Positions 6,306 through 25,035 of a stretch of 64,000 bases of DNA are shown in pieces. Location of the stretch: positions 1-64,000 of the forward strand of contig CACLZL010000004.1 in the NCBI GenBank assembly GCA_902611405.1, given 5' to 3'. Position 1 is the first letter of the stretch; each line of letters starts with the position of its first letter. The notes beneath the pieces were generated by a model. It ran no database searches, was not told where the DNA came from, and saw nothing but the letters and a program-made list of their open reading frames with translations. This DNA comes from an uncultured Pelagibacteraceae bacterium (GTDB taxonomy: Bacteria > Pseudomonadota > Alphaproteobacteria > Pelagibacterales > Pelagibacteraceae). A program made the translations under genes and the position numbers.

Positions 6306-6311
6306 CAAGAA

Positions 6312-6899
6312 TTATTTTGGCTCAATACCCATTTCTTTCATGTCTTGATATCTGTCACCAGTTCTTGCATGCGCTCTACCACTTGATGCCCCACCAATTG
6401 CAATAACCACCTCATCATCGAAGGGTGCATCATGAATAGTAAATTCATGAGTTAGGTAATATGGTCTCAATCCAGAATCTGTTTTATGCATCATAGGAAT
6501 CGCAATCTTTGATCCAGCAGGTCCCCTTGTATTTGTAAAACTTAAATAGGAAGTTCCACCAACCGCATCTCTAAATTTATTACCGAACCTTAAAGTATGA
6601 ATAAAAGCTGAAGCATGCTCTATTTCACCGTTCAATCCAACTACACCTGCTTTACCATATGCCAATATTTTTTCAGGTGATCCTATTTCTTTTATCAATT
6701 CTGGAACAAGTAAATCACCTAGCTTTGGTGCAAGATCTAAAATAGTTGGCCTGAGATCTTCAACAAAACCCTGATCATGCCATGGATTTTTAAACACTGC
6801 TGCTACCGATACCATTAAGACTGGTTCTTTTGCTTCTTTACCACCTTCAATAAAAGTTTTGTCTACAAATTTTGTAAATTTTCTTAATTCTAATTTCAT
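6312..6899 (-). CDS. Amino-acid-synthesis family protein (PF06684, formerly DUF1185)
   Basis: A 195-residue cytoplasmic protein recognised by VAAVFKNPWHDQGFVEDLRP at the N-terminal third, the glycine-rich GKAGVVGLNGEIEHASAFIH block, and the C-terminal IGGASSGRAHARTGDR motif, all typical of PF06684. Crystal structures of the family show a variant of the chorismate-mutase-like fold and the proposed role is in amino-acid metabolism; the reaction is not established. Its ATG overlaps the stop of the ThDP enzyme (ATGA), so the two are coupled. Placement between an LLM monooxygenase/ThDP enzyme and a hydrolase/ALDH pair suggests a ring-opening, tautomerase or amidohydrolase-like step, which is inference. 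Confidence 0.8.
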   Translation of the reverse strand: MKLELRKFTKFVDKTFIEGGKEAKEPVLMVSVAAVFKNPWHDQGFVEDLRPTILDLAPKLGDLLVPELIKEIGSPEKILAYGKAGVVGLNGEIEHASAFIHTLRFGNKFRDAVGGTSYLSFTNTRGPAGSKIAIPMMHKTDSGLRPYYLTHEFTIHDAPFDDEVVIAIGGASSGRAHARTGDRYQDMKEMGIEPK

Positions 6900-8599: not shown

Positions 8600-9765
8600 G
8601 AAACTTTTTTTACTTCAGTATCAAAATCATCTTGGAAGTGAGGCATAACTTTTTCTGTGAAAAGTTTTATACTTTTCATACAATCTTTATGCTTCACACC
8701 TGGAAAATTAGACCAAACTTGCAAATTTTGTAAATTGAGTTCAGATTTTAATTCATGAATTTTATCAATCACATATTCTGGTGTTCCAAATAACATGTTT
8801 CTTTTATGTAAAAATTCATAATTTAATAAATCTAATTTACCTTTTGTTTCAGGTAGCTCTTCACCAGGATCCATATGATTTCCCAAACCTCTCCAATGGC
8901 AAACCCATCTCATATAATTTACCATATGTTCACCAGCTTTCTCTTTTGCTTCTTCCATGGTATCTGCAACGAACATGTCTCTTACAAGAGACACCCCTTC
9001 GCCAAGGGGTATATTTTTCTTTGTTACTTCTGATCTTTTATTTTTATAAGCTTCGAATTTTGGTTTCAAAGCTTTTACGGTTGGTATCCACATTATAACA
9101 TTAATATTATTTTCAGCAGCCCACTCAATTGATCTTATTCCATCAACAACTTGATGAATTGGAGGGTGTGGCTGTTGGTATGGCTGTGGAACAACACTGA
9201 TTTTTTTCATAGTACTGTCTTCCATATTCATAAATTCTTCACTTGGAGGACTCATATCATGCTGCCAAACATAATTTGGCGACGGATAAGTATAAAATTC
9301 TCCCTGATGACTGAAAAATTTTTCACTCCATGCTTTCTTCAACACTTCTAAAGTCTCAGCAAATAATCTAAAATTTTTAGCCTGATCTTTTAAGTCAGCT
9401 TCTTTATTTAGGTTAATTGCTTCCCTACCATATATTCCTCTTGCTACACCCACCTCAACTCTTCCTTTAGAAAGCTGGTCTAATGTAGCTATATCTTCAG
9501 CTAATCTTATTGGATTATGAAAAGTAATAACGTTTGCAGCTTGACCTATTCTAATATTTTTTGTTCTTGCAGCTGCATCTGCACCCATCATTAATGGATT
9601 TGTACAAGATTCCATTCCCTCGTGATTGAAGTGATGTTCTGTAAACCAAATTGAATTCCATTTTTTTTGATCACAGTATTCTGTAATTTCTTTAGTTTCA
9701 TCTAACAATTGATGATAAGGTTTGTGTGTCCAGTTTGTGGTATTACAAAAATAACCAAATTTCAT
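8596..9765 (-). CDS. LLM-class flavin-dependent monooxygenase (luciferase-like)
   Basis: A 389-residue bacterial-luciferase-family protein starting at ATG 9765, preceded by a strong AAGGAGG ribosome-binding site; an upstream in-frame GTG at 9807 would add 14 residues not resembling the family. Family marks are MKFGYFCNT at the N terminus, WFTEHHF near residue 43, NPIRLAEDIATLDQLSKGR near residues 95-115 and the GVARGIYGREA flavin loop. These TIM-barrel enzymes use reduced FMN and O2 supplied by a separate flavin reductase to insert oxygen into a C-N, C-S or C=O substrate. No reductase gene is in this operon. It is the first gene of the five-gene module and probably starts the pathway. Confidence 0.88.
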   Translation of the reverse strand: MKFGYFCNTTNWTHKPYHQLLDETKEITEYCDQKKWNSIWFTEHHFNHEGMESCTNPLMMGADAAARTKNIRIGQAANVITFHNPIRLAEDIATLDQLSKGRVEVGVARGIYGREAINLNKEADLKDQAKNFRLFAETLEVLKKAWSEKFFSHQGEFYTYPSPNYVWQHDMSPPSEEFMNMEDSTMKKISVVPQPYQQPHPPIHQVVDGIRSIEWAAENNINVIMWIPTVKALKPKFEAYKNKRSEVTKKNIPLGEGVSLVRDMFVADTMEEAKEKAGEHMVNYMRWVCHWRGLGNHMDPGEELPETKGKLDLLNYEFLHKRNMLFGTPEYVIDKIHELKSELNLQNLQVWSNFPGVKHKDCMKSIKLFTEKVMPHFQDDFDTEVKKVS

Positions 9766-9769
9766 AAAG

Positions 9770-9777
9770 CCTCCTTT
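9770..9777 (-). promoter_or_regulatory. Strong Shine-Dalgarno site deciding the LLM monooxygenase start
   Basis: On the minus strand AAAGGAGG ends four bases before the ATG at 9765. It is one of the strongest ribosome-binding sites in the window and argues for that ATG over the GTG 42 bases upstream. The 105-base gap to the next gene upstream (stop at 9871) probably holds this operon's promoter, but no clear -35/-10 pair stands out there. Confidence 0.7.
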
Positions 9778-9870
9778 AAAAGTTAATTTAAAGACGACCG
9801 ATCCCACTTTCGTAAATCTATGAATTTATCGACGAGTTATGTATCGCTTTATATTTAAACTTTATAATTA

Positions 9871-10839
9871 CTAACGTTGATATTCAATAAATTTCTTTAA
9901 AGATTTGTTGAGAAATTTCTCATAAATTTCACCATTATTTTTAAATTTATTTCCATTTAAAAATGATTGGTTCATATTGAAATCATATGAAGGCTCAAAG
10001 AAAAAAGGGACAGAGAGCCTTTGGCTTTTATTCCATAAAACCCTGTGATTAGTTGCTTTAAATTTACCTTTGCTAAGAAATTCTAACGCTCTTCCCGTAT
10101 TTACCACTAAAGCTTTTTTGTTGAATGGTACATCATACCATTTTTTGTTTTTTCTATTTTGTACTTGTAATCCACCTTTTCTATCTTGATAGAGAACTGT
10201 AAATATTCCACTATCAACATGTGTTTCACATCCAAGAGCGACCCCATCTTGTTTTGATATTTCCACTGGTTTTGTTTGGTTAGGGTAATAATTAAATCTT
10301 AATGTACTCAATGTTTTTAATCTTGAAAAAGCTTTACCAGAAATATCAGGATTTTTTTTACTAAGTTTTATTACACTTTTAAACAATGTCTCACTTAATC
10401 TATAAATGTTATCAAAATATTTATTTAAAATATTAATTGAGTTTTTATTTAAGCATTTTCCTAGATTGAGATACTCTATGTATTGATTATTTAGATTTGA
10501 GGAATATTTTTTAGTTACTTTTAAATCACCTATATCCAAACCTTCTTTTCCATTCACATCATTAGGAAAATATCCTCTGTATAGATTTTTATTTTTTTTA
10601 TTCCATTTTTTTGGTGACAACTTTCTTTTTTTTCTGTCTGGTAAATTAAAAAATTTATTGCCAACCCCGCATGTTTTTTTAATTAATTTTAAATTAATTT
10701 CATGACCAGTAATTTGAAAAAAACCTACTTTGGTACAAGCTTTTTCAATTTCTTTAATTGTCTTAAATGCACTTTGAGTTTCAAAGTTATTTTTTATAAG
10801 TGAGGATATATTAATTGTAGGTATATAACTTTTGGTCAT
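9871..10839 (-). CDS. 2-oxoglutarate/Fe(II)-dependent oxygenase, isopenicillin-N-synthase family
   Basis: A 322-residue protein with the DIOX_N-type N-terminal region (IPTINISSL, residues 6-14; VGFFQITGH, 38-46) and a C-terminal 2OG-FeII_Oxy domain. The iron facial triad is His207, Asp209 (THVDSG) and His265 (ATNHRV); Arg274 and Ser276 (QRLS) bind 2-oxoglutarate. Such enzymes hydroxylate, desaturate or cyclise small molecules. It is the last gene of a run with an amidinotransferase and two EamA transporters, and its ATG overlaps the preceding stop (ATGA). The IPNS family includes enzymes acting on guanidino amino acids (ethylene-forming enzyme and plant homoarginine hydroxylases), a tempting link to the amidinotransferase, but the substrate is not shown. 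Confidence 0.85.
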   Translation of the reverse strand: MTKSYIPTINISSLIKNNFETQSAFKTIKEIEKACTKVGFFQITGHEINLKLIKKTCGVGNKFFNLPDRKKRKLSPKKWNKKNKNLYRGYFPNDVNGKEGLDIGDLKVTKKYSSNLNNQYIEYLNLGKCLNKNSINILNKYFDNIYRLSETLFKSVIKLSKKNPDISGKAFSRLKTLSTLRFNYYPNQTKPVEISKQDGVALGCETHVDSGIFTVLYQDRKGGLQVQNRKNKKWYDVPFNKKALVVNTGRALEFLSKGKFKATNHRVLWNKSQRLSVPFFFEPSYDFNMNQSFLNGNKFKNNGEIYEKFLNKSLKKFIEYQR

Positions 10840-12759: not shown

Positions 12760-13869
12760 TTATTGTTTTGGAAAATAGTTCTGAAGATCACCTTCTCTGA
12801 AAACATCAGTTGTGCTGCAATGTAAACTACCACCAAAAGCATAGACTTCTCTAAAATCTATTGGAATTACTTCCATTCCAAGCTTATCTAATTGTTCAGC
12901 TTGATAAACTTCTGTCTTTTCTACACATACTGTTTTTGGATCTAGTACCAAAACATTCATTGATAGCCATACAGAGTAATAACTCAGGTCTGGAGGTGAA
13001 TTATGGGCAGGCTGAGCCGCATAAACAATTTCCCAACCATTGTCTTCAAAAAGTTTCCTTTGTTCTTTTGGAAGCTTTCTAACTGGATTATTTAAAATTA
13101 ACCCAGGTTTTATAGGTGTAAAAGTTGCATCTATATGAATTGGGTAGGGATCTCCTGGAAAATTTACTGTATGAATTCTATGATCTGGAAAATGTCTTTT
13201 TAACCAGTCAATTCCTTTTAGATTAGTTGTAAATCCATGTTGAACAATTAAATCTTTTCCAAATCTTAAAATATCTGCAGCATCAAAAAGTGGTTCCTCT
13301 TCAGTTGTAACAAAATATTTTTTTTCTGCCCACTGTAATCTTTGCTCTATACTCACATCTTCTGATAAATAATTCATATGATAATCAGCATCAGTCAATC
13401 TAGGTTTAGGCGCAGTTTCGTGTCTCATGCCGGGATCTTCAACAAAGTACTTTTGTAACAATGGTCTGTAGGCTAAATACTCAAACCATCTACATCTAAA
13501 ACTCATTGTAGCTTCAAGCATTTCTTTTCCAACTGTAATTATAACATCTCTAGATGGCATACACCCAAACATATGTTCTGCTTCCCAATCAGGAGTGGCA
13601 ATTTTTTCATCAAATTTAAGTGGAGTAGGTCTATCAACTCTTATACCTCTTCCCTCAAGTGTTTTAACAAATTTATCTAAAAGTTCATTAGCTCTATCTA
13701 TAGAATCTTGTGTTCGTCTTCCGTGTTTACCTTTCATCACAGAGTCAGGTGGAATTTTACAATCAACAGCTGGTTCAGGTGCAGGAATACAGCAATTATC
13801 TGCCCTTCCAACAATTACATGTTTTAATGGATCCCATTCATTCCAACTTTGAACAATAGTCTTTTTCAT
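12760..13869 (-). CDS. Amidinotransferase of the arginine:glycine amidinotransferase family
   Basis: A 369-residue cytoplasmic enzyme of the AGAT/StrB family (human GATM, streptomycin StrB). The catalytic triad equivalents are visible: Asp in LFDAAD (about 196), His245 in PIHIDATF and the nucleophile Cys351 in GGSLHCSTTD. The N-terminal block SWNEWDPLKHVIVGRA and EHMFGCMPSRDVI also match. It moves the amidino group from arginine to an amine acceptor: glycine gives guanidinoacetate, lysine gives homoarginine, amino-inositols occur in antibiotic producers. Ornithine is the by-product. It heads an operon with two EamA carriers and a 2OG-oxygenase. There is no antibiotic cluster around it, so a small amine acceptor is more plausible. 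Confidence 0.88.
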   Translation of the reverse strand: MKKTIVQSWNEWDPLKHVIVGRADNCCIPAPEPAVDCKIPPDSVMKGKHGRRTQDSIDRANELLDKFVKTLEGRGIRVDRPTPLKFDEKIATPDWEAEHMFGCMPSRDVIITVGKEMLEATMSFRCRWFEYLAYRPLLQKYFVEDPGMRHETAPKPRLTDADYHMNYLSEDVSIEQRLQWAEKKYFVTTEEEPLFDAADILRFGKDLIVQHGFTTNLKGIDWLKRHFPDHRIHTVNFPGDPYPIHIDATFTPIKPGLILNNPVRKLPKEQRKLFEDNGWEIVYAAQPAHNSPPDLSYYSVWLSMNVLVLDPKTVCVEKTEVYQAEQLDKLGMEVIPIDFREVYAFGGSLHCSTTDVFREGDLQNYFPKQ

Positions 13870-13920: not shown

Positions 13921-15504
13921 CTAAGAATTTAAAATAAATTCTGATGCTCTTTCTGCAATCATTAAAGTTGGAGCATTTAGATTTCCACTAGTAATTTCTG
14001 GCATTACAGAAGCATCAACTACTCTTAAGTTTTCTATACCATGAACTTTTAGTTTTTGGTCAACTACAGCCATATTGTCTACTCCCATTTTTAAAGTACA
14101 AGATGGGTGATATGCTGTCTCTGCTTTTGAACGAATATATTCCTCAAATACTTCATTGGTTTGAGCATGTTCTCCTGGTCCAATTTCTTTTCCTGCGTAT
14201 GGTTTTAATGAATCTTGTCCTAAAATTTTTCTAGCCACATGAATACATTCTATTGTTTGCTTTAAATCATCTTCATGTTCTAAATAATTAAATTGAATTT
14301 TTGGATAATCATAAGGATTTGAACTATTTAGTGTTATATGACCTCTACTTTTTGGGTGATTTGGACTTGCATGTAGTTGATAACCATGTCTATCTGGATC
14401 AACTAATCCATGATCAATTACAAACGCAGGAAAAAAATGAAATTGAATATTAGGATATTCTCTTTCTGGAGATGATTTACAAAAACCTCCTGCTTCTAAG
14501 AAAGAGGCAGAACAAGGGCCACTTCTATTTAGAAACCATTGAATACCAACTCTAATCATGTTGATTTTGTTAACATAAGAATACAAAGTATCTTTAGTTT
14601 TACATTCTTGTTGCACATAAGTTTCTAAGTGGTCTTGTAAGTTTTTTCCGACTCCCTCCAAGTTGTTAACAACACTAATTCCTTTATCTTTTAGGTGCTG
14701 GCTTGGTCCAATTCCTGAAAGCATTAGTAATTGTGGTGAATTGATTGCACCACCACTCAAAATTACCTCTTTATTTGCATATATTTTTTCAACTTTATTT
14801 TTAATTTTTACTTCTATTCCAATTGCTTTTCTTCCATCAAAAATAATTTTCTCAACAAAGGCTTCTGTAAATACTTTTAGATTTTTTCTTTTTTTTGCTG
14901 GATTTAAATAATATTTAGAAACACTAGCCCTTTCACCTTTATGAATCGTAACATCGTACATTCCAAAACCTTCTTGTTCTTTACCATTCATGTCATTATT
15001 TATTTTGTAACCTGCTTCACCAGCTGAATCGACAAATGCTTTGAATAAAGGGTTTTTATTTTTAGATTGGTTTACTGGTAGTATTCCACTGCCACCCCGA
15101 TATTCATTTTCTCCTTCAGACCATGTTTCAATTTTTTTAAAATAGGGAAGAACTTTTTCATAAGACCAATCTTCCAATCCAAATGATACCCATCTTTGAT
15201 AATCATTCGGATTACCTCTTACGAATACCATTCCATTATGCGCAGAACATCCACCAATCATTTTTCCTCTAGGACAGAATAATCTTCTGTTATGCAAGTG
15301 AGGTTCTGGTTCTGAATAATATTTGTAGTTATACTTTGGATCATGCATTGTGTATAAAATCGCAAGTGGCATGTTGACTTTCCAGATATCACTGGGTTTC
15401 CCAGCTTCAAATATTGCTACATTGTTTTGATTATTTTCTGTTAATCGATTTGCAAGTACACAGCCTGCACTTCCAGCGCCAATGATTAAATAATCAAAAT
15501 TCAT
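13921..15504 (-). CDS. betA: GMC-family oxidoreductase, choline dehydrogenase type
   Basis: A 527-residue FAD enzyme. The N-terminal dinucleotide motif is GAGSAGCVLANRL (about 8-20) and the GMC signature 1 includes GGCSAHNGMVFVRG near residue 85. Signature 2 is GAINSPQLLMLSGIG near 255, and the C-terminal active-site region is AYHPSCTLKMG with the proton-abstracting His, then SGNLNAPT. Length and motifs fit BetA, which oxidises choline to betaine aldehyde and often on to glycine betaine at the membrane. Other alcohols are possible because the GMC family is broad. Its ATG overlaps the stop of the PhnZ-like gene (ATGA). Betaine transport, carnitine and GDPD genes nearby support a choline/betaine role. 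Confidence 0.8.
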   Translation of the reverse strand: MNFDYLIIGAGSAGCVLANRLTENNQNNVAIFEAGKPSDIWKVNMPLAILYTMHDPKYNYKYYSEPEPHLHNRRLFCPRGKMIGGCSAHNGMVFVRGNPNDYQRWVSFGLEDWSYEKVLPYFKKIETWSEGENEYRGGSGILPVNQSKNKNPLFKAFVDSAGEAGYKINNDMNGKEQEGFGMYDVTIHKGERASVSKYYLNPAKKRKNLKVFTEAFVEKIIFDGRKAIGIEVKIKNKVEKIYANKEVILSGGAINSPQLLMLSGIGPSQHLKDKGISVVNNLEGVGKNLQDHLETYVQQECKTKDTLYSYVNKINMIRVGIQWFLNRSGPCSASFLEAGGFCKSSPEREYPNIQFHFFPAFVIDHGLVDPDRHGYQLHASPNHPKSRGHITLNSSNPYDYPKIQFNYLEHEDDLKQTIECIHVARKILGQDSLKPYAGKEIGPGEHAQTNEVFEEYIRSKAETAYHPSCTLKMGVDNMAVVDQKLKVHGIENLRVVDASVMPEITSGNLNAPTLMIAERASEFILNS

Positions 15505-16037
15505 ATAAGTTTTGAACTTAACAACTTTTCATAGTCATGAATAGATTTCATTTTTATGTCAGTTCTTTTAGCTGCTTCGTCAAACTTTCGGACTAGAATT
15601 GATGGCTTAAAGTAAGATTTATTCTCAAACTTTTTACTTTCTTTGTCATTTAAAACTCCTCCTTGTAATTTGAGGCTTATTTTTGACGCATCTGATAAAA
15701 AGTCAAAATATTTTTTGTCTCGAGCCAAATAACGTTTAGCTAAAACATGGTATTTAATTGGCTCAACAATTTTTTGTCCAAAAAATTTTTTTAAATACTG
15801 ATATCCAATATTTTCATGCTCTCCATCTAATTTATTTTTAACTAATTCTTGAGGATCTTCTAAAAGAAAATGACCATAGTCATGAAGTAAACATGCACAA
15901 ATTAAATCATCATTACATTTAGCTTTTTCAGCAAGCATTGCTGACTGAATCATATGTTCTGACATAGTTACTTTCTCACCAATGTATAAAGATTTATTAT
16001 TTATAAAATTTGAAATGATTTTATAAATTATCTTCAT
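15501..16037 (-). CDS. PhnZ/TmpB-like HD-domain mixed-valence diiron oxygenase
   Basis: A 178-residue HD-superfamily protein. It carries YIGE (Tyr18, Glu21), His28 (SEHMIQSA), His52-Asp53 and His56 (HDYGH), His74, His97 with Lys101 (YHVLAK) and Asp153 (RKFDEAAK). With a constant offset of six (seven after residue 90) these match the PhnZ residues I recall: Y24, E27, H34, H58, D59, H62, H80, H104, K108 and D161. PhnZ cleaves the C-P bond of a 1-hydroxy-phosphonate with O2; TmpB does the same on the trimethylamino analogue, giving glycine betaine. It lies three bases after a TauD-type dioxygenase and overlaps the choline-dehydrogenase-like gene. An oxidative C-P or C-C cleavage is inferred; the substrate is open. 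Confidence 0.75.
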   Translation of the reverse strand: MKIIYKIISNFINNKSLYIGEKVTMSEHMIQSAMLAEKAKCNDDLICACLLHDYGHFLLEDPQELVKNKLDGEHENIGYQYLKKFFGQKIVEPIKYHVLAKRYLARDKKYFDFLSDASKISLKLQGGVLNDKESKKFENKSYFKPSILVRKFDEAAKRTDIKMKSIHDYEKLLSSKLI

Positions 16038-16040
16038 TTA

Positions 16041-16871
16041 TTATTGCGGATGATCCCCTTCAACAGCTATACGATCCATTACTCTTTCAAAACCAAGCCC
16101 TTTATTTGGATAAAAATCAGCAATAGCATAATGCTGAACACTTCTATTATCCCAAATAGCCACTGCATTTTCTGTCCATTTAAATCTACAAGTAAGATCT
16201 AATCTTGCCTGATGTTCAAATAAATAATTTAATATCTCTTTACTTTCTTCTTTGTCCATACCAACAATTTCTTTTGTGTAAGTCCAATTTACAAAAAGAA
16301 TTTTTTTGCCTGTTTCTGGATGAGTTCTTAAAATTGGATGAGTGTTTGAGTATTCATCCATATTTCCATTACTTTGCATTGCTTTATATTTATCAAGGAA
16401 AAACCCACCTCCAAGTGAAGAATGAACTGCTTTTTTATTTTTAATTTTATTTTTTATCTCTTCTTCTAGGGTCTCCCACGCAAGTTCCATGTTTGAGAAA
16501 ACAGTATCTCCTCCAACTGGTGGAATTTTAATTGATTTTAAAATTACAGCTTTAGTTGGTTTTTCGTTATAGCTAACATCTGAATGCCAACCTTCACCCC
16601 ATTGTGTTTTTTCTTCAGGCTTTTTAATTATTCTTATTATTTCAGGGAATTCACTTAAACCTCTTACATAAGCATGTGTTTCTAATGGTCCAAATTTTGA
16701 AGCTAGAGCAACATGTTGTTCTGACGTCAAAGGTTGATTTCGAAAAAAAATAACTTTGTGTTCTAATAATAAGTTATTTATTTTTTTAAAATTTTCATCT
16801 GAAACGTCAGTCAAGTCAATTCCACTTATTTCAGCACCTAATGCTCCTGATAATAATTTTACATCAATCAT
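16041..16871 (-). CDS. TauD/TfdA-family 2-oxoglutarate-dependent dioxygenase
   Basis: A 276-residue dioxygenase with the iron ligands His96 and Asp98 (GWHSDVSY) and His247 (SVQHYAIAD), and 2OG-binding arginines near 263-267 (FERVMDR). The N-terminal block GALGAEISGIDL and the core PPVGGDTVFSNM are typical of TauD. Family members hydroxylate taurine, alkyl sulfates, 2,4-D, quaternary amines or phosphonates next to the leaving group. The gene overlaps the thioesterase upstream (ATGA) and is followed by the PhnZ-like gene. Hydroxylase-then-HD-oxygenase is the order of chemistry in the PhnY/PhnZ and TmpA/TmpB phosphonate pathways, so this may be the hydroxylase half of such a pair. Taurine use is the plain alternative. 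Confidence 0.85.
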   Translation of the reverse strand: MIDVKLLSGALGAEISGIDLTDVSDENFKKINNLLLEHKVIFFRNQPLTSEQHVALASKFGPLETHAYVRGLSEFPEIIRIIKKPEEKTQWGEGWHSDVSYNEKPTKAVILKSIKIPPVGGDTVFSNMELAWETLEEEIKNKIKNKKAVHSSLGGGFFLDKYKAMQSNGNMDEYSNTHPILRTHPETGKKILFVNWTYTKEIVGMDKEESKEILNYLFEHQARLDLTCRFKWTENAVAIWDNRSVQHYAIADFYPNKGLGFERVMDRIAVEGDHPQ

Positions 16872-17335
16872 TTTTTAAGTTTTCCAATAATGGATAAATT
16901 GTCAGAATTAAATTCATTTTTATTTTCATTTATAAAGTCATCCATAATTTTAATTTTTTCATCTTCAAATTCTGTAACTTTTCTTTTACTAAGATCAATA
17001 TAAAGCGCTAACATTTCAATAGTTGCTGATAATTTTTTTGATGATTTTTCAATCATTTCCATCTTGAAATGTAATCTCTTTTTATCATGATCAAAGAAGG
17101 TTAAAACAATTTCAACTTCATCTCCCTCTTTAACTTCACCATCATATGTAGTACGAGTTTCAACAACCATGGTACTTCTTTGGGTATCTTTTGCAGATTT
17201 TTCACCCATCTTAAATTTTTCTAGAATGATCTCCCAAGTCTGATCAAAAACTAAGACATAGTAAGCCATGTTCATATGATTATTATAATCAGTCCATTCT
17301 TTTTTGATTGTTTGGTTTGTTATGTGAAAAGACAT
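16868..17335 (-). CDS. Hotdog-fold acyl-CoA thioesterase (betainyl-CoA thioesterase candidate)
   Basis: A 155-residue single hotdog-domain protein of the 4-hydroxybenzoyl-CoA thioesterase type, with the active-site Asp16 in WTDYNNHMNMAYY and the later TRTTYDGEVKEGDEVEI strand. It would hydrolyse an acyl-CoA in the cytoplasm. It is divergent from, and only 47 bases away from, a BKACE/carnitine-dehydrogenase gene pair. In carnitine degradation a thioesterase of this kind (CdhB, sometimes fused to carnitine dehydrogenase) releases glycine betaine from betainyl-CoA, so that role fits the location. It is also the first gene of the TauD/PhnZ-like/GMC operon, which leaves another acyl-CoA possible. 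Confidence 0.7.
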   Translation of the reverse strand: MSFHITNQTIKKEWTDYNNHMNMAYYVLVFDQTWEIILEKFKMGEKSAKDTQRSTMVVETRTTYDGEVKEGDEVEIVLTFFDHDKKRLHFKMEMIEKSSKKLSATIEMLALYIDLSKRKVTEFEDEKIKIMDDFINENKNEFNSDNLSIIGKLKK

Positions 17336-17357
17336 TTTTTTATTTCCTCGTCCTTTT

Positions 17358-17363
17358 TATAAT
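17358..17363 (+). promoter_or_regulatory. Probable -10 element (TATAAT) for the BKACE/carnitine dehydrogenase operon
   Basis: A consensus TATAAT lies 19 bases before the ATG at 17383, inside the 47-base divergent gap. The region 17 bases further upstream is T-rich and has no good -35 box, so the call rests on the -10 alone. Transcription would begin near 17370 and give a leader of about a dozen bases. Confidence 0.3.
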
Positions 17364-17382
17364 AGTATAAATCTTACTTAAA

Positions 17383-18270
17383 ATGAACAACAAGGTATTC
17401 ATATCATGTGCTGTGACGGGGTCTGGAGATACCGCTGGTAAACATCCAGATTTACCAAAAACACCAGAACAAATTGCTAAAGCATCAATTGAAGCTGCAA
17501 AAGCTGGAGCTGCTATTGCTCATATTCATGTGAGAGAGGAAGACGGAACTCCAAGTAGAAGATTAGAGTTATATAAAGAGGTTGTAGATAGAGTTCGTTC
17601 AAGTGATACAGATGTGATTTTGAATTTAACAACTGGTATGGGTGGAGATTTAGATATTGGTCAAGGCAAAGACCCATTAGAGTTTGGACCAATGACTGAT
17701 ATGGCAAATGTTATGGAAAGAATTGCAAATGCTGAGCAATTTTTACCAGAGATTTGCACTTTAGATTGTGGAACTTTAAACTTTGGTGATAGTTCAGTTA
17801 TAACCGTCAATACTCCAAACGATTTAAGAAAAGCTGCAAAAAGATTGAAAGAAATTAAAGTAAAACCAGAAATCGAGGCCTTTGATTTAGGCAATATGTG
17901 GTTTGGTGCACAGCTATATAAAGAAGGATTGTTGGATGATCCGCCTATGTTTCAAATGTGTTTAGGAATTCCTTGGGGAGCGCCAGCTACTCCATTAGCA
18001 ATGCAAGCTATGAAAGATATTATGCCAAAAGAAGGCGTGTGGTCAGGCTTTGCAATTTCAAAAAATGAGATGCCATTTGTAGCACAAACTGTAATTATGG
18101 GTGGTAATCCTAGAGTAGGTTTAGAGGATAATTTGTATTTATCTAAAGGAAAACTGGCAACAAATGCACAGTTAGTTGAAAAGGCATTAAGAATTCTTGA
18201 AGATCTAGGTGTATCAACAATGACACCTGCAGAAACAAGAGAGAAGTTAAAACTTGTTAAACACAAGTAA
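17383..18270 (+). CDS. cdhC: BKACE-family beta-keto acid cleavage enzyme (3-dehydrocarnitine cleavage type)
   Basis: A 295-residue PF05853 (formerly DUF849) TIM-barrel enzyme. The Zn-binding His47/His49 lie in AAIAHIHVREEDG, and other family blocks are SCAVTGSGDT (about 9-18), ILNLTTGMGG and LDCGTLNFGD near residue 125. BKACE enzymes condense a beta-keto acid with acetyl-CoA to give acetoacetate and a new acyl-CoA. For 3-dehydrocarnitine the products are betainyl-CoA and acetoacetate. The next gene is a carnitine-dehydrogenase-like protein overlapping by one base (TAATG), and a thioesterase lies divergently next door; together they make the full CdhA-C-B set. Family is firm, and carnitine as substrate is strongly suggested by context. 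Confidence 0.85.
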   Translation: MNNKVFISCAVTGSGDTAGKHPDLPKTPEQIAKASIEAAKAGAAIAHIHVREEDGTPSRRLELYKEVVDRVRSSDTDVILNLTTGMGGDLDIGQGKDPLEFGPMTDMANVMERIANAEQFLPEICTLDCGTLNFGDSSVITVNTPNDLRKAAKRLKEIKVKPEIEAFDLGNMWFGAQLYKEGLLDDPPMFQMCLGIPWGAPATPLAMQAMKDIMPKEGVWSGFAISKNEMPFVAQTVIMGGNPRVGLEDNLYLSKGKLATNAQLVEKALRILEDLGVSTMTPAETREKLKLVKHK

Positions 18271-19211
18271 TGCAAAATATTAAAAAAGTTGCTGTGATTG
18301 GAACAGGTGTAATCGGAGCAGGGTGGATTATACGTTGTTTGGCTCATAATAAAATTGTTTATGCATTTGATAAAGATATTAACTTAAAAAAAAAATTATT
18401 ATCTGAAATAAAAAGAACTTGGCCTTTTGTAAAAAAATTATTTAATAAAAAAAAATTAAATCTTAAAAATTTTCATTTTTTTACCTCAATAGAACAAACA
18501 TTAAAAGATGCAGATTTTATTCAGGAGTGCGCAACTGAAAATTATTCTTTAAAAACTAAATTGATTAGCACTATTGGAAAATATGCAAAATCTAATTCAA
18601 TTATTGCTTCAAGCTCATCGGGTTTGTTGCCAACGAGAATTTATTCAAAATGTAAAAATCCTGAGAGGGGAATAATTGGACATCCATTCAATCCTGTATA
18701 TTTATTGCCTGCTGTAGAAATTGTTCCAGGCGAGAGAACTTCAAAAAAAAATTTAAATTTAGCTAAAAAATTTTACAAATCAATTCTTATGAATCCAATT
18801 ATGGTTAAAAATGAATTACCTGGATATTTGTCTGATAGATTACAAGAAGCTTTATGGAGAGAAGGGCTACATATTATTAATGAGGGATATGCAACTACTG
18901 AAGAATTAGATAGAGCAATTGAAGATGGCCCAGGATTAAGATGGTCTTTGATGGGTACATTTTTAACCTTTCATCTTGCTGGAGGAAAAACGGGAATGAA
19001 ACATATGTTGAAACAATTTGGACCTGCTTTAAAATTACCATGGACTAAATTAAAAGCCCCCAAGCTATCAAAAAAATTATCTTCTAGATTGATTTTAGGA
19101 ACAGCAAGACAGGCTAAAGGTAAATCAGTTGCAATGATATCTAATATAAGAGACCAGTATTTGGTTGATATTCAAAAGTTAAGAAAGAAATACGAAAAAA
19201 AACTTAGGTAA
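18270..19211 (+). CDS. cdhA: L-carnitine dehydrogenase-like protein (3-hydroxyacyl-CoA dehydrogenase family)
   Basis: A 313-residue NAD-dependent dehydrogenase with an N-terminal Rossmann motif (VAVIGTGVIGAGW; Gly11, Gly13, Gly16). It has the block QECATENYSLK near residue 90, SSSSGLLPTR near 113 and the HPFNP catalytic-His region near 133, as in 3-hydroxyacyl-CoA dehydrogenases and carnitine dehydrogenases. The C-terminal part shows GPGLRWSLMGTFLTFHLAGG, typical of the carnitine/lambda-crystallin branch. It would oxidise L-carnitine to 3-dehydrocarnitine for the BKACE enzyme. It lacks the thioesterase domain that some carnitine dehydrogenases carry at the C terminus; here the thioesterase is a separate divergent gene. 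The tail is strongly lysine-rich. Confidence 0.8.
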   Translation: MQNIKKVAVIGTGVIGAGWIIRCLAHNKIVYAFDKDINLKKKLLSEIKRTWPFVKKLFNKKKLNLKNFHFFTSIEQTLKDADFIQECATENYSLKTKLISTIGKYAKSNSIIASSSSGLLPTRIYSKCKNPERGIIGHPFNPVYLLPAVEIVPGERTSKKNLNLAKKFYKSILMNPIMVKNELPGYLSDRLQEALWREGLHIINEGYATTEELDRAIEDGPGLRWSLMGTFLTFHLAGGKTGMKHMLKQFGPALKLPWTKLKAPKLSKKLSSRLILGTARQAKGKSVAMISNIRDQYLVDIQKLRKKYEKKLR

Positions 19212-20004: not shown

Positions 20005-21030
20005 TTACGATTTTGTTAATGATGTCTGTAATTCTTTATTAGATATATACCCTTTAACATTTCCACTTTTGTCAACCACTTCACAATTAGAATTCGAACA
20101 TACAATTTGAGGTAAAAACTCCTCAATAAATTGATCTTCATTAACTTTTATTAAGTTAGATTTATCTATATCGTTAGACTCATTAACACTCTTCATAATA
20201 ATTTTAGCTTTAATTACTTTTGCTCTATTAACATCTTTAACAAATGCCTTAACATAATCATCAGCTGGATTCATTATAATATCAACTGGCGTTCCAACTT
20301 GAACTAATTTTCCAGCATTTAATATTCCAATGTGATCACCAAGTCTTAGAGACTCATCTAAATCATGAGTAATAAATACAATAGTTTTTTTTAATTCCGA
20401 TTGAAGATCTAGTAATTGTTTTTGCATATCACTTCTTATTAAAGGGTCTAATGCACTAAAAGCTTCATCCATTAACATGATATCACTATCAGTGGCAAGT
20501 GCTCTTGCAAGACCAACACGTTGCTGCATTCCTCCAGATAATTGATTTGGAAATTGATTTTCAAACCCTGTTAAACCAACAGCATCAATTTTTTCCATCG
20601 CTACACTATGTCTTTCCTCTTCTGCTTTGCCTTGCATTTCCAATCCATAGCCTACGTTCTGTAAAACAGTTTTATGTGGGAACAAACCAAATCTCTGAAA
20701 TACCATACTCATTTTATGTCTTCTAAAGTCAATTAGTTGCTCTTTATTTAATGACATTACATTTGTTCCTTCTACTAAAATTTCTCCATCAGTGGGATCG
20801 ATTAATCTATTTAAATGCCTAATTAGAGTTGATTTTCCAGATCCTGACAAACCCATACAAACAAAAGTTTCTCCTTCTTCTATTTTTAATGAAACATTAT
20901 CAAGACCAACCGTATGACCAGTTTGTTCTAAAACTTCTTCTTTGTTCGCTCCATCTTTTACCATTGGCATTACAGATTGAGGATTGTTGCCGAAGATTTT
21001 ATAAACATTATTAATCTCAATTTTAGACAT
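20005..21030 (-). CDS. proV: Glycine betaine/proline-type ABC transporter ATP-binding protein
   Basis: A 341-residue ABC ATPase with Walker A GLSGSGKST (about 59-67), signature LSGGMQQRVGLARAL (about 160), Walker B DIMLMDEAFSALDP and the H-loop FITHDLDESLRLGD. The first about 50 residues and the domain order follow ProV/OpuAA/ChoV. The C-terminal stretch after residue 260 is shorter than a full double-CBS module and ends in VVDKSGNVKGYISNKEL, a partial CBS-like element. It energises import of quaternary amines through the ProW-type permease whose stop overlaps its start by one base. Betaine, choline, carnitine or proline betaine are the likely ligands. Confidence 0.92.
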   Translation of the reverse strand: MSKIEINNVYKIFGNNPQSVMPMVKDGANKEEVLEQTGHTVGLDNVSLKIEEGETFVCMGLSGSGKSTLIRHLNRLIDPTDGEILVEGTNVMSLNKEQLIDFRRHKMSMVFQRFGLFPHKTVLQNVGYGLEMQGKAEEERHSVAMEKIDAVGLTGFENQFPNQLSGGMQQRVGLARALATDSDIMLMDEAFSALDPLIRSDMQKQLLDLQSELKKTIVFITHDLDESLRLGDHIGILNAGKLVQVGTPVDIIMNPADDYVKAFVKDVNRAKVIKAKIIMKSVNESNDIDKSNLIKVNEDQFIEEFLPQIVCSNSNCEVVDKSGNVKGYISNKELQTSLTKS

Positions 21031-22061
21031 TATTTACCTTTCTTTGTATTTGGTGCTGTTCTTTCTTGTAGAGTTTCTCCGTAAGATTGAGTTATCCTAT
21101 CAAGAACTATTGCCAAAAGCACAATTGCGATCCCTGCTTCAGCAGCTCTCCCTACATTCAATTGTTGAAGACCAAGTAAAACTTCATCTCCTAAGCCTCT
21201 AGTACCTATCATCGATGCAATAACAACCATCGCTAATGCCATCATTGTACACTGATTAATTCCTTGCATAATATTTGGCAAAGCTAATGGCATTTGTACA
21301 CCCCAAAGCTTTTGTTTTTTACTCGCACCAAATGCATCTGCAGCTTCAATAACTTCAGTGTCAACAAGCCTAATTCCTAAATCTGTTAGTCTAACTAGAG
21401 GAGGAACCGCATAAATAAATGTGGCTATAATTGCTGGAACTGCACCTAAGCCAAACAACATAATACCTGGAATTAGGTAACAGAAACTTGGAATAGTTTG
21501 CATTAAATCTAAAACTGGCAAAATAACATTTCTTGTTCTTGCACTTCGTGCCATAGCTATTCCCAATGGAATACCAGCAACAACACAAAGAAATATTCCA
21601 ATTAACATTATTGCAGTTGTTTCAATTGCTTTTTGCCAAAATATTGGGTGAAGAAAACCTATAAAAAAAGTGCAAAATCCTACAAATACTGTTGTTCCAA
21701 CTTTTCTTCCACTTGCAAAGTAAGTTAGAACCACTACACCAAGTATAACCAGTGGCCATGGAGCTTGAATTAAAAAGTTTTTTACAAGCATTAACATATA
21801 TAAAAGAACATTGTTAATAGCTTCAAATATGTACCCATATTTTTCGTTAAGTGTTTTGAAACCAGAATTAATCCAATTCATTAATGGTAAATCCAACCAT
21901 TTTGGCCATTTACCTCCTAGCCAAGAAAAATCATTTAATAATTCTCCAATATTGTCAGGTTTTCTTTTTGATTGAGAATAGCTAGTTATTAATAACCATA
22001 CAAAAACAACCAACAAACCAATATTAAAAAATATTTTTTTATTTTTCTTTAATGCTTCCAT
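21030..22061 (-). CDS. proW: Glycine betaine/proline-type ABC transporter permease
   Basis: A 343-residue inner-membrane permease. It has an N-terminal cytoplasmic/TM region of about 110 residues, then the binding-protein-dependent transport domain with the EAA loop near residue 245 (VIEAADAFGASKKQKLWGVQMPLALP). The membrane segments QTIPSFCYLIPGIMLFGLG and MMALAMVVIASMIGTRGLG are typical of ProW/OpuAB. It forms the channel for the ProX-like binding protein and the ProV ATPase. The operon order proX, proW, proV, SDR is on the minus strand. A stem-loop in the 62-base gap after proX probably lowers permease expression relative to the binding protein. Confidence 0.92.
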   Translation of the reverse strand: MEALKKNKKIFFNIGLLVVFVWLLITSYSQSKRKPDNIGELLNDFSWLGGKWPKWLDLPLMNWINSGFKTLNEKYGYIFEAINNVLLYMLMLVKNFLIQAPWPLVILGVVVLTYFASGRKVGTTVFVGFCTFFIGFLHPIFWQKAIETTAIMLIGIFLCVVAGIPLGIAMARSARTRNVILPVLDLMQTIPSFCYLIPGIMLFGLGAVPAIIATFIYAVPPLVRLTDLGIRLVDTEVIEAADAFGASKKQKLWGVQMPLALPNIMQGINQCTMMALAMVVIASMIGTRGLGDEVLLGLQQLNVGRAAEAGIAIVLLAIVLDRITQSYGETLQERTAPNTKKGK

Positions 22062-22075
22062 ATTTGTTTTTTACT

Positions 22076-22100
22076 TAAAGAAAGAGCCCCGAAGGGCTCT
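22076..22100 (-). terminator. Intra-operon hairpin with UUCG tetraloop between proX and proW
   Basis: Read on the minus strand, a 7-bp stem AGAGCCC/GGGCTCT closes a C(UUCG)G tetraloop (22083-22100) and is followed by TTCTTT. It lies after the proX stop and before the proW start, so it is a partial terminator or an mRNA-stabilising 3' hairpin that lets the binding protein be made in excess over the permease. Confidence 0.7.
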
Positions 22101-22123
22101 ATCTTATAAATTTAATTTAAAGA

Positions 22124-23140
22124 TTATAATGCTGCTGAAACTTTTTTAGCAACATCAGCTGGTACCCAGTCTTTCCACATAGATTCTGTTTTCAAGAACT
22201 CTATTGCAGTAGCTTCCATATCACCACCTGACTCATCCTCATAGAATGCTAACATTTTGTTAACAGTAGCTGTTGGAACTGTATATTTTCCAATAAACTC
22301 ATTTTCTTTTGGATGAGCTTTTGCCCATGTTGCAAGTACAGACTTAGTTAAAGCCATATCTCTATATTCACATGCGCATGAAGGTTTATAAGCATCTGGT
22401 CCGTTAGCTTTGATATCTTCAACAACTGCTGACATATTATCCCAGCATGTTTGATCAAATTTTGGTTCAGTTAATCTTACTAGATCAACTTTACCCATTA
22501 AACCAGTCGGTGCCCAGTAGTAAGTGAAGATTGGTTTTTTCTTAGCAAATGCACCTGCTATTGCAGCATCTAATGCACCTCCTGAACCCGGATCAAAGTT
22601 TGTATAATATTTATCTAAACCATACTCTTTTTGTTTAACCAAGTTAACAGTGTAGCAAGTCCAACCAGATATACAGCTAGTCATTCTACCTTTTGAAGGA
22701 TCTTCTGGATCTTTAAATAGCGCAGCTATTTTTGGATCTTTCATATCCTCAACAGATTTTAAATTGTATTTATCAGCAGTAGCTTTATCTACATAGAATG
22801 CTTGCTGAGAGTCTGGTGTGTTTGTTCCCATATGGATAATTGTACCCGCTTCTTCGTGAGGCTTATAATTACCAATGATATTATCGTACCAAACTTCAGT
22901 AATAACGTCTAATTGACCATCGTAATGAGCGGCCATAATAGGTGTAGTACTTCCCTTAGTTACAGACACTTCACAACCATATCCCTTTTCAAGGATGAAG
23001 GTAGTGATAGCTGTATGGATATTAGCACTACTCCAGTCAAAATCTCCCAATCTAGCCTTACAGTCACCTGCATTAGCATTACTAACAACTAAAGATGATA
23101 GAAGGAAAATCGAGATAGTTAATCTTTTTAAAAACTTCAT
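22124..23140 (-). CDS. proX: Periplasmic glycine betaine/choline-type substrate-binding protein
   Basis: A 338-residue OpuAC-family (type II) binding protein with a signal peptide (MKFLKRLTISIFLLSSLVVSNANA, cleavage about residue 24). The mature part begins GDCKARLGDFDWSSANIHTA and includes WYDNIIGNY and YYWAPTGLMG. Aromatic residues in such segments build the cation-pi box that holds trimethylammonium groups. Internal cysteines (SCISGWTCYTV and PSCACEYRD) suggest disulfides in the periplasm. It starts the transporter operon with a GGAGA ribosome-binding site. It is longer than canonical E. coli-type choline binders, and the ligand could be betaine, choline, carnitine or a similar quaternary amine. 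Confidence 0.88.
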   Translation of the reverse strand: MKFLKRLTISIFLLSSLVVSNANAGDCKARLGDFDWSSANIHTAITTFILEKGYGCEVSVTKGSTTPIMAAHYDGQLDVITEVWYDNIIGNYKPHEEAGTIIHMGTNTPDSQQAFYVDKATADKYNLKSVEDMKDPKIAALFKDPEDPSKGRMTSCISGWTCYTVNLVKQKEYGLDKYYTNFDPGSGGALDAAIAGAFAKKKPIFTYYWAPTGLMGKVDLVRLTEPKFDQTCWDNMSAVVEDIKANGPDAYKPSCACEYRDMALTKSVLATWAKAHPKENEFIGKYTVPTATVNKMLAFYEDESGGDMEATAIEFLKTESMWKDWVPADVAKKVSAAL

Positions 23141-23271: not shown

Positions 23272-24402
23272 GTGAGTGTAATTTCTAAACTTGAAAAAAA
23301 TTCTACTTATTTAAAAGTTATTTGGAGTGATGGCGAAGAAAGCAAATTCAATTATCTTTGGTTGAGAGATAATTGTCCAACTGCTCATGACAAAGACTCA
23401 AGACATCGAATGTTTAATATCTTGAATGTATCACAAAATATTAATCCAAAAAAATATTCTCTAAGTGCAGACGGTAAATTAGAAATTGAATGGAGTGAAG
23501 GAGATCATACAAGTTATTATGACCCTAAGTGGTTAAGAGAAAATTGTTATACTTTAAAACATAAGCAAAAGTATATTTCCCCATATAAACTTTGGGATAG
23601 TTCACTTGAAAAAAATTTAGAAAGTATTCAAATTGATCATGATGAAATTATAAGTTCCGATGATGGATTAATTAAATGGTTGGAGCTTTTGCATCACACT
23701 GGGATAGCAATAGTAAAGAATTCACCAGTTGAAAAAAATTCAGGATTAAATGTATTAAATCGAATAAGTCATACTCGTGAAACTTTTTTTAAAACACCTT
23801 TTGAAGTAATTAACATTCCAAAACCAAACAACTCTGCATACACAGCTCACGCATTAAGAAATCATATGGATTTACCTTGGTTTGAAAATCCTCCAGGGTA
23901 TCAATTTTTACATTGTTTGGTAAATTCTGCAAAAGGAGGAGACTCTTCTGCAGTTGATGCTTTTGCAGTGGCAGACTTTTTAAGAAAAAATGAAAAAGAA
24001 ACTTTTGATATCTTGGTTAACACTCCATTGAAATTTAGAGATAAGGATTATACTCAAGAAGCAATTAGAAGTGTTCATGGCACAGCAATCTCACTTACAA
24101 AAGATGGAGATTATAATGATATTCGTTACAGTATTGCAACTTTAGATGCACTTGATTGTCACCCTGATGTAATGGATTCAGTTTATAAAGCACATCATCG
24201 ATTTGGTAACCTATTACATGATAGTAAATTTCAAATTAATTTTAGATTAGAACCAGGTGATATTTTTTCATTCAATAACAGAAGACTTCTTCATGGAAGA
24301 ACAGAATTTGATCCTAATTCAGGGCACAGGCATCTTCAAGGTTATTATATGGATAGGGACGAAATAATTGGAAGATTAAATTATCTTAAGCAACAATTAT
24401 AA
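23272..24402 (+). CDS. Gamma-butyrobetaine hydroxylase / TmpA-type 2OG-Fe(II) dioxygenase
   Basis: A 376-residue protein with the two-part layout of GBBH enzymes. The N-terminal domain is of the DUF971 type (WLRDNCPTAHDKDSRHR, about 30-46) and the C-terminal part is TauD-like. Iron ligands are His198, Asp200 (RNHMDLPW) and His341 (NRRLLHGR); Arg353 (GHRHLQG) fits the 2OG site. The N-terminal zinc site appears altered: where BBOX has several cysteines, this protein shows one Cys and His residues. Substrate is gamma-butyrobetaine (to carnitine) or 2-trimethylaminoethylphosphonate (TmpA). Both fit: carnitine genes and a PhnZ/TmpB-like gene are within 10 kb. The start is GTG, divergent from proX. 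Confidence 0.82.
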   Translation: MSVISKLEKNSTYLKVIWSDGEESKFNYLWLRDNCPTAHDKDSRHRMFNILNVSQNINPKKYSLSADGKLEIEWSEGDHTSYYDPKWLRENCYTLKHKQKYISPYKLWDSSLEKNLESIQIDHDEIISSDDGLIKWLELLHHTGIAIVKNSPVEKNSGLNVLNRISHTRETFFKTPFEVINIPKPNNSAYTAHALRNHMDLPWFENPPGYQFLHCLVNSAKGGDSSAVDAFAVADFLRKNEKETFDILVNTPLKFRDKDYTQEAIRSVHGTAISLTKDGDYNDIRYSIATLDALDCHPDVMDSVYKAHHRFGNLLHDSKFQINFRLEPGDIFSFNNRRLLHGRTEFDPNSGHRHLQGYYMDRDEIIGRLNYLKQQL

Positions 24403-25035
24403 GTTTTCGAATATTAGGTTATTTTTTTTATATTTTTTGAATTCAGAATTATTTTTAATTGTATAAAAATATTTTTTAATCTTTAGTTTCTGAATTTTTG
24501 TGTTTTTGATGTATGATTTATCAAGAATTAAGCAATCTATATTTTTAATTATTGATTTTTTTACTATTGATTTCACAGTTGTTGTTGGAGAAAAAGATAA
24601 ACCCACTTTTGTTTTCTTATTTAGTTTTAAAAGATTAAAAATATTTTGATGTTTAAACGAAATAAATACACATTTTGAATATTTAGATGTTTCATTATTT
24701 AGTTTTTTAAGTAATTTTGTTGATAATTTGGGCTTAATTTCAATAAATAAATAGAATTTATTTTTTGATATCTTTAATAAATCTTGGAGTAGGGGAATTG
24801 GTTTATTTTGTTTGAGACTTATTTCTTTTAACTTTTGATAATTTAAGTTTTTAACACTTTGTTTTTTTTTGAAAATCCTTGTTAAAGTAAAGTCGTGATA
24901 ACAGACAAATTTATTATCTTTAGTTGCGTGTATATCGGTTTCTATTCCAAATCCTTTTTTAAATGATTGTTTAAATGAATTTAAAAGGTTTTCTTTATAT
25001 TTTTTGTTAACAATCCCACGATGGATTAAATGCAT
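24397..25035 (-). CDS. Glycerophosphodiester phosphodiesterase
   Basis: A 212-residue small GDPD-family enzyme with the metal and catalytic residues in order: His5-Arg6 (MHLIHRG), Glu32 and Asp34 (IETDIHAT), and His47-Asp48 (YHDFTL). The later IEIKPK strand is also typical. It hydrolyses glycerophosphodiesters such as glycerophosphocholine to glycerol-3-phosphate and an alcohol, e.g. choline. No signal peptide is present, so it acts in the cytoplasm. It is the last gene after an ALDH and its stop overlaps the convergent dioxygenase stop by six bases. It is short for the family and lysine-rich in the C-terminal third. A choline-supplying role fits the island. Confidence 0.82.
   Translation of the reverse strand: MHLIHRGIVNKKYKENLLNSFKQSFKKGFGIETDIHATKDNKFVCYHDFTLTRIFKKKQSVKNLNYQKLKEISLKQNKPIPLLQDLLKISKNKFYLFIEIKPKLSTKLLKKLNNETSKYSKCVFISFKHQNIFNLLKLNKKTKVGLSFSPTTTVKSIVKKSIIKNIDCLILDKSYIKNTKIQKLKIKKYFYTIKNNSEFKKYKKNNLIFENL

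Follow-up and report, generated by a model that had tools for sequence, protein, structure and literature searches.

The window analysed here is a stretch of 64,000 nucleotides from an uncultured Pelagibacteraceae bacterium (GenBank assembly GCA_902611405.1, contig CACLZL010000004.1, positions 1 to 64,000). It carries a gene for an HD-domain protein. Sequence comparison and a predicted structure confirm the assignment of this protein to the family of PhnZ/TmpB-type mixed-valent di-iron oxygenases, and not to the nucleotide phosphohydrolases. In SAR11 the HD gene is a movable accessory gene. Its constant partner is the gene of a GMC oxidoreductase, while the TauD-type dioxygenase gene found next to it is not a fixed partner. 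The genes concerned are listed below.

15501..16037, minus strand: HD-domain oxygenase of the PhnZ/TmpB family, SAR11-specific clade; 178 residues.
13921..15504, minus strand: GMC oxidoreductase, choline-dehydrogenase-like; 527 residues; 4-nt overlap of its start with the HD stop.
16041..16871, minus strand: TauD-family 2-oxoglutarate/Fe(II) dioxygenase; 276 residues; anion-site residues kept, taurine-amine contacts lost.
16868..17335, minus strand: 4HBT_2 thioesterase resembling the C-terminal part of carnitine 3-dehydrogenase fusions; 155 residues; first gene of the unit.

The HD oxygenase and its family

A preliminary description of this DNA, made from the sequence alone, had recognized a 178-residue HD protein with the PhnZ residues and a YIGE loop. 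The open reading frame, the profiles, the motifs and the AlphaFold model all agree with this. The protein matches the Pfam HD domain with 34.3 bits. It matches the model of phosphonate-degradation HD oxygenases, TIGR03276, with E 1.5e-48 (164.7 bits, cut-off of 214.6 not reached), the NCBIfam TmpB model NF049941 with E 9.7e-46 (155.9 bits, cut-off of 300 not reached) and the PhnZ1 model with E 3.4e-40 (137.6 bits, cut-off of 300 not reached). The TmpB model scores higher than the PhnZ1 model, while the order is reversed for a paralog on contig C6 of the same genome. It is important to note that many alphaproteobacterial HD proteins miss the TIGR03276 cut-off: a match above it was found in 37 of 386 genomes of the class, and a family match at E<=1e-15 in 92 of them, with two matched places in the window's own genome. 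A sequence search of the PDB found four distinct sequences at E<=1, all of them TmpB (E 1.4e-31) or PhnZ (E 2.6e-27).

The metal residues H28, H52-D53, H74, H97 and D153 are invariant in all 30 aligned HD proteins. A published description (PMC8177086) gives H...HD...H...H...D as the metal motif of PhnZ/TmpB-type HD oxygenases, and describes the loop Tyr and Glu for both PhnZ and TmpB. In the window protein this YxxE loop is Y18-I-G-E21, with Y18 and E21 found in at least 90% of the 30 aligned proteins and in all six SAR11 rows. MIOX lacks such a gating loop. The positions equivalent to K108, S126 and R158 of PhnZ, which we take to be its phosphonate contacts, are invariant in the same 30 proteins.

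The AlphaFold model of the protein has a predicted local distance difference test score (pLDDT) of 94 and a predicted template modelling score (pTM) of 0.90. The first ten ranks of a Foldseek search with this model are all PhnZ or TmpB (TMq 0.87-0.91). Structural comparison by VIA gives Z values of 24.2-26.7 to PhnZ/TmpB, with root mean square deviations (rmsd) of 1.3-2.2 over 167-175 residues, 10.6 to MIOX and no more than 9.6 to all remaining structures listed. With PhnZ and TmpB in their substrate-bound forms the model superposes at 1.5-1.7 A. The identity of a nucleotide phosphohydrolase was rejected on the PDB sequence matches together with the Z values.

The HD gene is a real coding gene under purifying selection. 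Five of six pairs give, by the Nei-Gojobori method, a ratio of nonsynonymous to synonymous divergence (dN/dS) of about 0.03-0.15 (dN 0.02-0.17, dS 0.6-1.3); the remaining pair, saturated at dS 3.2, is excluded from this range.

In a tree of 72 rows the 13 SAR11 HD proteins form a single clade with support of 100/99, on a long branch. In the free tree the SAR11 clade stays apart from TmpB, but a tree constrained to hold SAR11 HD, TmpB and PhnZ together is not rejected, its log-likelihood being 6.4 above that of the free tree (approximately unbiased test, p-AU 0.67). The constrained group was named after the free tree had been seen. It comprises 27 of the 72 rows: the 13 SAR11 rows, 11 of 12 environmental TmpA-linked rows (L117 is left out), L150, TmpB and PhnZ. 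The tree program flagged composition bias and long branches in the HD alignment, so that the SAR11 clade is compatible with a place in the TmpB/PhnZ group without being proven to lie there.

The host of the window HD is a SAR11 bacterium. A contig search gave 153 confirmed relatives, and the best 80 of these, referred to below as the 80 SAR11 loci, are all titled Pelagibacteraceae, Pelagibacterales or Candidatus Pelagibacter. The class-level search supplied 70 further loci (30 stretches of up to 3.5 kb and 40 of mostly 10.5 kb), which represent 55 distinct HD genes, 15 having been fetched twice. By hand count, 31 of the 55 genes outside SAR11 have a match of GBBH/TmpA type (gamma-butyrobetaine hydroxylase family), or a C-P lyase, PhnC/D/E-like or phosphonatase-like match, in their stretch, some of these being ABC-ATPase similarities alone. 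No GMC match was found near HD in the 70 loci; TauD matches were confined to L167 and L172, where they lie kilobases away from HD. The SAR11 arrangement is therefore not seen elsewhere in this sample. In IMG/VR, 64 stretches fitted a pattern for HD relatives and none was confirmed; phage records gave one hit (35.8% identity), and 28 plasmid records were hit, all below 60% identity. L005:9189-9746 encodes an HD protein of 185 residues whose Phn-HD match is weak (34 bits); its gene adjoins genes resembling glutamate-cysteine ligase and glutathione synthetase.

The gene unit and its movable member

The TauD gene lies 3 nt upstream of HD and is itself overlapped by the thioesterase gene by 4 nt. 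The tight spacing and the overlaps of the four genes indicate a unit thioesterase-TauD-HD-GMC. The gene most closely linked to HD is GMC, which was absent from the preliminary description: it follows HD directly, with the 4-nt overlap, in 79 of the 80 SAR11 loci, and the remaining one (L051) ends 6 nt past HD. The solved structure nearest to the GMC protein is a choline dehydrogenase (E 1.1e-150). Directly upstream of HD is TauD in 68 of the 80 loci and the thioesterase in 11, while the contig of L104 starts too close to HD to show either.

The dioxygenase noted earlier immediately upstream of HD is real (PF02668, E 3.4e-60). It has 35% identity to TauD of E. coli and scores 231.7 bits on the taurine dioxygenase model NF007104 of NCBIfam, where the cut-off of 313 is not reached. 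Its relatives were aligned in 87 rows from 84 loci (three entered twice), in E. coli numbering. H99, D101, H255, T126 and R266, which we take to be the Fe/2-oxoglutarate positions, and H70 and R270, presumably the sulfonate positions, are kept in all 87 rows. The presumed contacts to the amine of taurine are altered: V stands for Y73 and G for N95 in all rows, and S158 is replaced by G, E or A. Such a pattern is expected for an anionic substrate without the amine contacts of taurine. In alignments R270 appears common to RdpA-type enzymes too, which makes H70 the more telling residue for an anion site.

The preliminary description had read TauD and HD as a candidate hydroxylase-oxygenase pair following the logic of PhnY/PhnZ and TmpA/TmpB. 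A dedicated pair of this kind is not supported. In 121 SAR11 genomes of the genus set, searched with the window HD, the island-type HD is present in 23, and an HD like that of contig C6 in at least four (a lower bound, since the window HD was the query), one genome having both. TauD is found in 35 genomes and a GMC ortholog (>=74% identity) in 46, with one more partial. HD and TauD are found together in 19 genomes, HD alone in 4, TauD alone in 16 and neither in 82 (p 3e-9). However, among the 46 genomes with a GMC ortholog the corresponding numbers are 18, 4, 14 and 10, and the association is weak and not significant (Fisher p 0.11). In two of the four HD genomes lacking TauD (G475 and G023) HD lies at a contig edge, leaving G010 and G498 as the clear cases. 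G480, where TauD is broken by a stop, was counted as having it, and in G020 HD lies on a different contig from TauD-GMC.

The arrangement of the loci gives the same picture. HD-GMC without TauD occurs in 11 of the 79 loci with a visible upstream side. Twenty extra loci were picked for lacking a partner or having it elsewhere; TauD-GMC without HD between is found in 13 of them, and GMC with neither in four. On a GMC tree of 40 rows, thinned and partly chosen, the HD state changes at least seven times and the TauD state at least three times, these being counts on a sample and not rates. Locus L094, with HD, and L196, without it, are 95.5% and 97.3% identical in the flanking DNA over about 7 kb on each side, and differ by 550 nt (HD) against 15 nt. 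The same pattern is found for L107 (with HD) and L202 (without), with 91.9% and 95.2% identity in the nearest blocks. Such loci with nearly identical flanks, together with the state changes, mark HD as a clean single-gene module, with TauD and GMC kept in its absence.

The TauD proteins from the two kinds of locus were also compared (69 rows with HD and 13 TauD-GMC rows; two more rows stand alone). They are identical at positions 70, 73, 95, 104, 206 and 270. Positions 156, 157 and a few outer ones differ in frequency. At position 156, G is found only in loci with HD (37 of 69), while E (29 and 6) and A (3 and 7) occur in both groups. None of the positions examined separates loci with HD from those without, which argues, without proving it, for one class of TauD substrate whether or not HD is present. 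In addition, TauD belongs to a 2-oxoglutarate dioxygenase subfamily different from those of the GBBH-type TmpA and the PhyH-type PhnY*. Presence and absence, the GMC tree, the TauD positions and the neighbourhoods all lead us to reject an obligate TauD-HD pair as stated.

Possible role in the betaine island

The choline/carnitine setting named in the preliminary description is real and recurs in SAR11 loci. Upstream of the unit, BKACE and carnitine dehydrogenase genes run divergently, followed by a transporter, a GBBH-like gene and a phosphodiesterase:

17383..18270, plus strand: BKACE, for carnitine degradation by context.
18270..19211, plus strand: L-carnitine 3-dehydrogenase-like (350.3 bits, cut-off 414).
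20005..23140, minus strand: ABC transporter (ATPase, permease and OpuAC-type binding protein), ProV-ProW-ProX by order and Pfam.
23272..24402, plus strand: gamma-butyrobetaine dioxygenase-like, GBBH/TmpA family (BBOX model 316.6 bits, TmpA model 272.8, both below cut-off).
24397..25035, minus strand: glycerophosphodiester phosphodiesterase, possible choline release.

An island of this kind, with carnitine dehydrogenase, BKACE, BBOX, class II aldolase, thioesterase, 'BBOX(2)', choline dehydrogenase and DMT transporter, is described for Arctic SAR11 (mBio 2025, PMC12421898). BBOX(2) is probably the TauD-like gene. The list of 17 genes in PMC12421898 names no HD gene, and the terms 'HD domain' and 'phosphohydrolase' are absent from its main text. 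The carnitine/betaine island is thus already described. For the SAR11 TauD-HD-GMC unit, its HD part or its modularity, no published account was found in the open-access library searched.

From the gene families we infer that the routes of the island converge on glycine betaine. One would lead from gamma-butyrobetaine through carnitine, 3-dehydrocarnitine and betainyl-CoA to betaine (GBBH, dehydrogenase, BKACE and thioesterase), the other from choline or betaine aldehyde to betaine by GMC. Since the other recognizable routes end at glycine betaine, the simplest assumption for HD is a reaction like that of TmpB. We propose tentatively, giving it somewhat less than an even chance, that HD adds to the island the conversion of 1-hydroxy-2-trimethylammonioethylphosphonate to glycine betaine and phosphate. 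This is TmpB chemistry as reported in PMC10574752. HD, an accessory single-gene module lying between GMC and either TauD or the thioesterase, would most likely bind an alpha-hydroxyphosphonate with an ammonium group, the Tyr/Glu loop recognizing the cation, and break the C-P bond of the (R)-1-hydroxy-2-(trimethylammonio) compound with O2.

TauD is a candidate, non-obligate supplier of the hydroxylated substrate. It may hydroxylate the carbon adjoining the anionic group of a quaternary amine. If this group is a sulfonate, the product would be unstable and break down spontaneously to an aldehyde open to oxidation by GMC; if it is a phosphonate, the product would be stable and need HD. This would explain why TauD-GMC exists without HD, where TauD probably also has a job independent of HD. 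The data thus show the family, the modelled fold, the conserved residues, the linkage and the modularity of HD, while its substrate, the part played by TauD, the substrate of GMC and betaine as the product are inferred.

It is useful to compare the window proteins with the characterized systems. TmpB of Leisingera caerulea, which with TmpA converts trimethylammonioethylphosphonate to glycine betaine and phosphate, shares with the window HD the fold, the metal residues, the YxGE loop, the stretch T-M-x-E-H-M-[LI]-Q and a betaine-yielding setting. However, the identity is 37-40%, and the SAR11 HD forms its own clade and comes and goes alone. TmpA is a GBBH-type hydroxylase, whereas the neighbour of the window HD is of TauD type, GMC follows HD, and the GBBH-like gene lies 7 kb away. 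In the PhnY*/PhnZ system of the uncultured bacterium HF130_AEPn_1, PhnZ shares the HD fold (the Z values above), the YIGE loop and the metal residues, but has 30-34% identity to the window HD, beside which no genes for 2-aminoethylphosphonate (AEP) were seen; PhnY* is of PhyH type. The methylphosphonate pathway GmPhnY/GmPhnZ1 has the same oxygenase family. The window HD scores lower on it than on TmpB, and it is the second HD, on contig C6, that leans towards GmPhnZ1. E. coli TauD shares its 2-oxoglutarate/Fe residues and the H70/R270 anion site with the window TauD, in which Y73, N95 and S158 are all changed.

Other hydroxylases and phosphonate genes are present elsewhere in the genome (1.22 Mb, 39 contigs, 88% complete). 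The preliminary description saw no C-P lyase or phosphonate transporter. This holds for the part of the window looked at, annotation covering part of the 64 kb, but not for the genome, as contig C6 has phnCDEE and phnFGHI. In the stretch L004:1-19001, read as far as phnI, phoU, phoB, two phnE, phnC, phnG and phnH are above curated cut-offs, phnD and phnF just below them, and phnI is recognized by Pfam; a HAD protein is also present, and the second HD oxygenase reaches 201.5 bits on TIGR03276. Conventional phosphonate metabolism thus has a locus of its own in this organism. By reading, this locus also holds polyphosphate genes. A sister family has a similar phosphonate arrangement with another HD, e.g. 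in L034 and L035.

A TmpA-like protein of the GBBH family is encoded on contig C3 at 16469-17569 (L208:7467-8570), with 349.9 bits on the TmpA model and 275.2 on BBOX, both below cut-off, so that its profile scores put it between the two. In a quick tree, which is not relied on, it falls with the TmpA rows on a very long branch (Shimodaira-Hasegawa approximate likelihood ratio test, SH-aLRT, 84). Its relatives (>=67% identity) are found in 37 of 49 genomes searched, the copy of G480 being broken by stops. As the hydroxylase for HD it is a weakened candidate: it does not track HD, and two of the three phosphonate contacts of TmpA are changed. PhyH matches are four, on contigs C1, C6, C3 and C15, and none is on the window's contig C4. 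Among the three scanned (those of C6, C3 and C15) no phosphonate hydroxylase was recognized, the best PhnY score being 28.7 against a cut-off of 500. The gene at L216:910-1824 on contig C15 codes for glutarate dioxygenase GlaH (454 bits, NCBIfam cut-off 333).

Several observations weigh against a TmpB-like role. The window HD is under every curated family cut-off (TIGR03276, TmpB and PhnZ1), and the free tree leaves its clade apart from TmpB. No phosphonate gene stands beside HD in the SAR11 loci read, the association with TauD is weak given GMC, and HD is missing from near-identical loci. The TmpA-like gene is not associated with HD (17 of 23 genomes with HD, 20 of 26 without, p = 1). Its protein has D and P at the positions of TmpA N187 and N287, with R288 kept; these are the phosphonate-binding residues of TmpA according to PMC9296572.

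In another explanation HD no longer acts on phosphonates. It would instead cut a C-C (or C-S) bond in a hydroxylated quaternary amine, for instance a hydroxy acid related to carnitine or betaine, and feed GMC or betaine metabolism. Precedent exists in MIOX, which cleaves a C-C bond. The scores below all phosphonate cut-offs, the missing phosphonate neighbours, the long-branched clade, GMC as constant partner (79 of 79 visible) and the C-P lyase genes with another HD oxygenase in a locus of their own would all suit this explanation. However, the equivalents of PhnZ K108, S126 and R158 (presumed phosphonate contacts) and the Tyr/Glu loop are unchanged, and the model fits substrate-bound PhnZ and TmpB at the deviations given above. 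We regard this explanation as unlikely.

A dedicated oxidative phosphonate pathway in which TauD, newly recruited as the hydroxylase, and HD would carry out two successive steps, like PhnY*/PhnZ or TmpA/TmpB, is also rather improbable. The position of TauD directly upstream of HD (68 of 80), the strong co-occurrence (19 of 23 genomes with HD, p 3e-9) and the conserved anion residues are consistent with it. It is opposed by the weak association given GMC (p 0.11), by TauD-GMC without HD (13 of the 20 chosen loci) and HD-GMC without TauD (11 of 79), and by the TauD positions, none of which separates the groups, though G156 occurs with HD only (37 of 69). A solitary HD acting on ready-made environmental (R)-2-amino-1-hydroxyethylphosphonate or hydroxymethylphosphonate is very unlikely: genomes with HD and no TauD match exist (G010, G498), and the three scanned PhyH-type proteins are unlike PhnY*, but the placement in the betaine island would be left unexplained, and the PhnZ1 (hydroxymethylphosphonate) model scores below that of TmpB. 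An ordinary nucleotide phosphohydrolase, which the HD fold in general could suggest, is strongly disfavoured by the TmpB/PhnZ-only PDB matches and Z values of 24.2-26.7 against at most 9.6 for listed structures other than these and MIOX.

Marine phnZ counts and the wider neighbourhood

The substrate of HD bears on estimates of phosphorus cycling in the ocean, where SAR11 is an abundant bacterium. According to one survey (PMC9381506), phnZ is the most widespread strategy of 2-AEP catabolism in the oceans, and Pelagibacterales contribute 45% of marine phnZ sequences. In a survey that splits the subtypes (PMC8316502), very few sites have the 2AEP-specific form. The island HD type may dominate the SAR11 'phnZ' counts. 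If the SAR11 phnZ in databases is mostly of this type, what HD cuts decides whether the survey estimates stand. There is a small chance that the commonest SAR11 'phnZ' is an O2-dependent HD oxygenase of quaternary-amine metabolism cleaving C-C (or C-S) bonds, and that the marine surveys in which phnZ ranks as the leading phosphonate route have largely counted a betaine gene. The loci that are 95-97% identical with and without HD are natural presence/absence pairs, which makes the question directly testable.

The unit also occurs apart from carnitine genes: among the 66 loci that extend 6.5 kb or further upstream, 56 have BKACE within this distance and 46 have carnitine dehydrogenase. At L064:4697-8682 the unit stands beside genes for a ParA-like ATPase, proteorhodopsin and flotillin in place of the carnitine genes, and about ten further loci, judged by gene sizes, look like this neighbourhood. 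Genes for a CitE/HpcH-type lyase and for a class II aldolase are often found ahead of the thioesterase gene (L107:8668-9528; L066:7968-8696).

On the other side, an arginine-deiminase-superfamily (amidinotransferase-like) gene at 12760-13869 of the window adjoins GMC. Such a gene is found within three genes downstream of HD in 12 of the 80 loci, and many others have an opposite-strand gene there. The block at 5523-10839 of the window, with an alpha/beta hydrolase, AA_synth, a thiamine pyrophosphate-dependent enzyme, a luciferase-like monooxygenase and a 2-oxoglutarate oxygenase of isopenicillin N synthase type, recurs in related loci. At L094:1742-2593, in the betaine island between ProV and a short-chain dehydrogenase/reductase, lies a relative of 2-oxoglutarate-dependent halogenases (Pfam HalD, 46 bits, cut-off 26).

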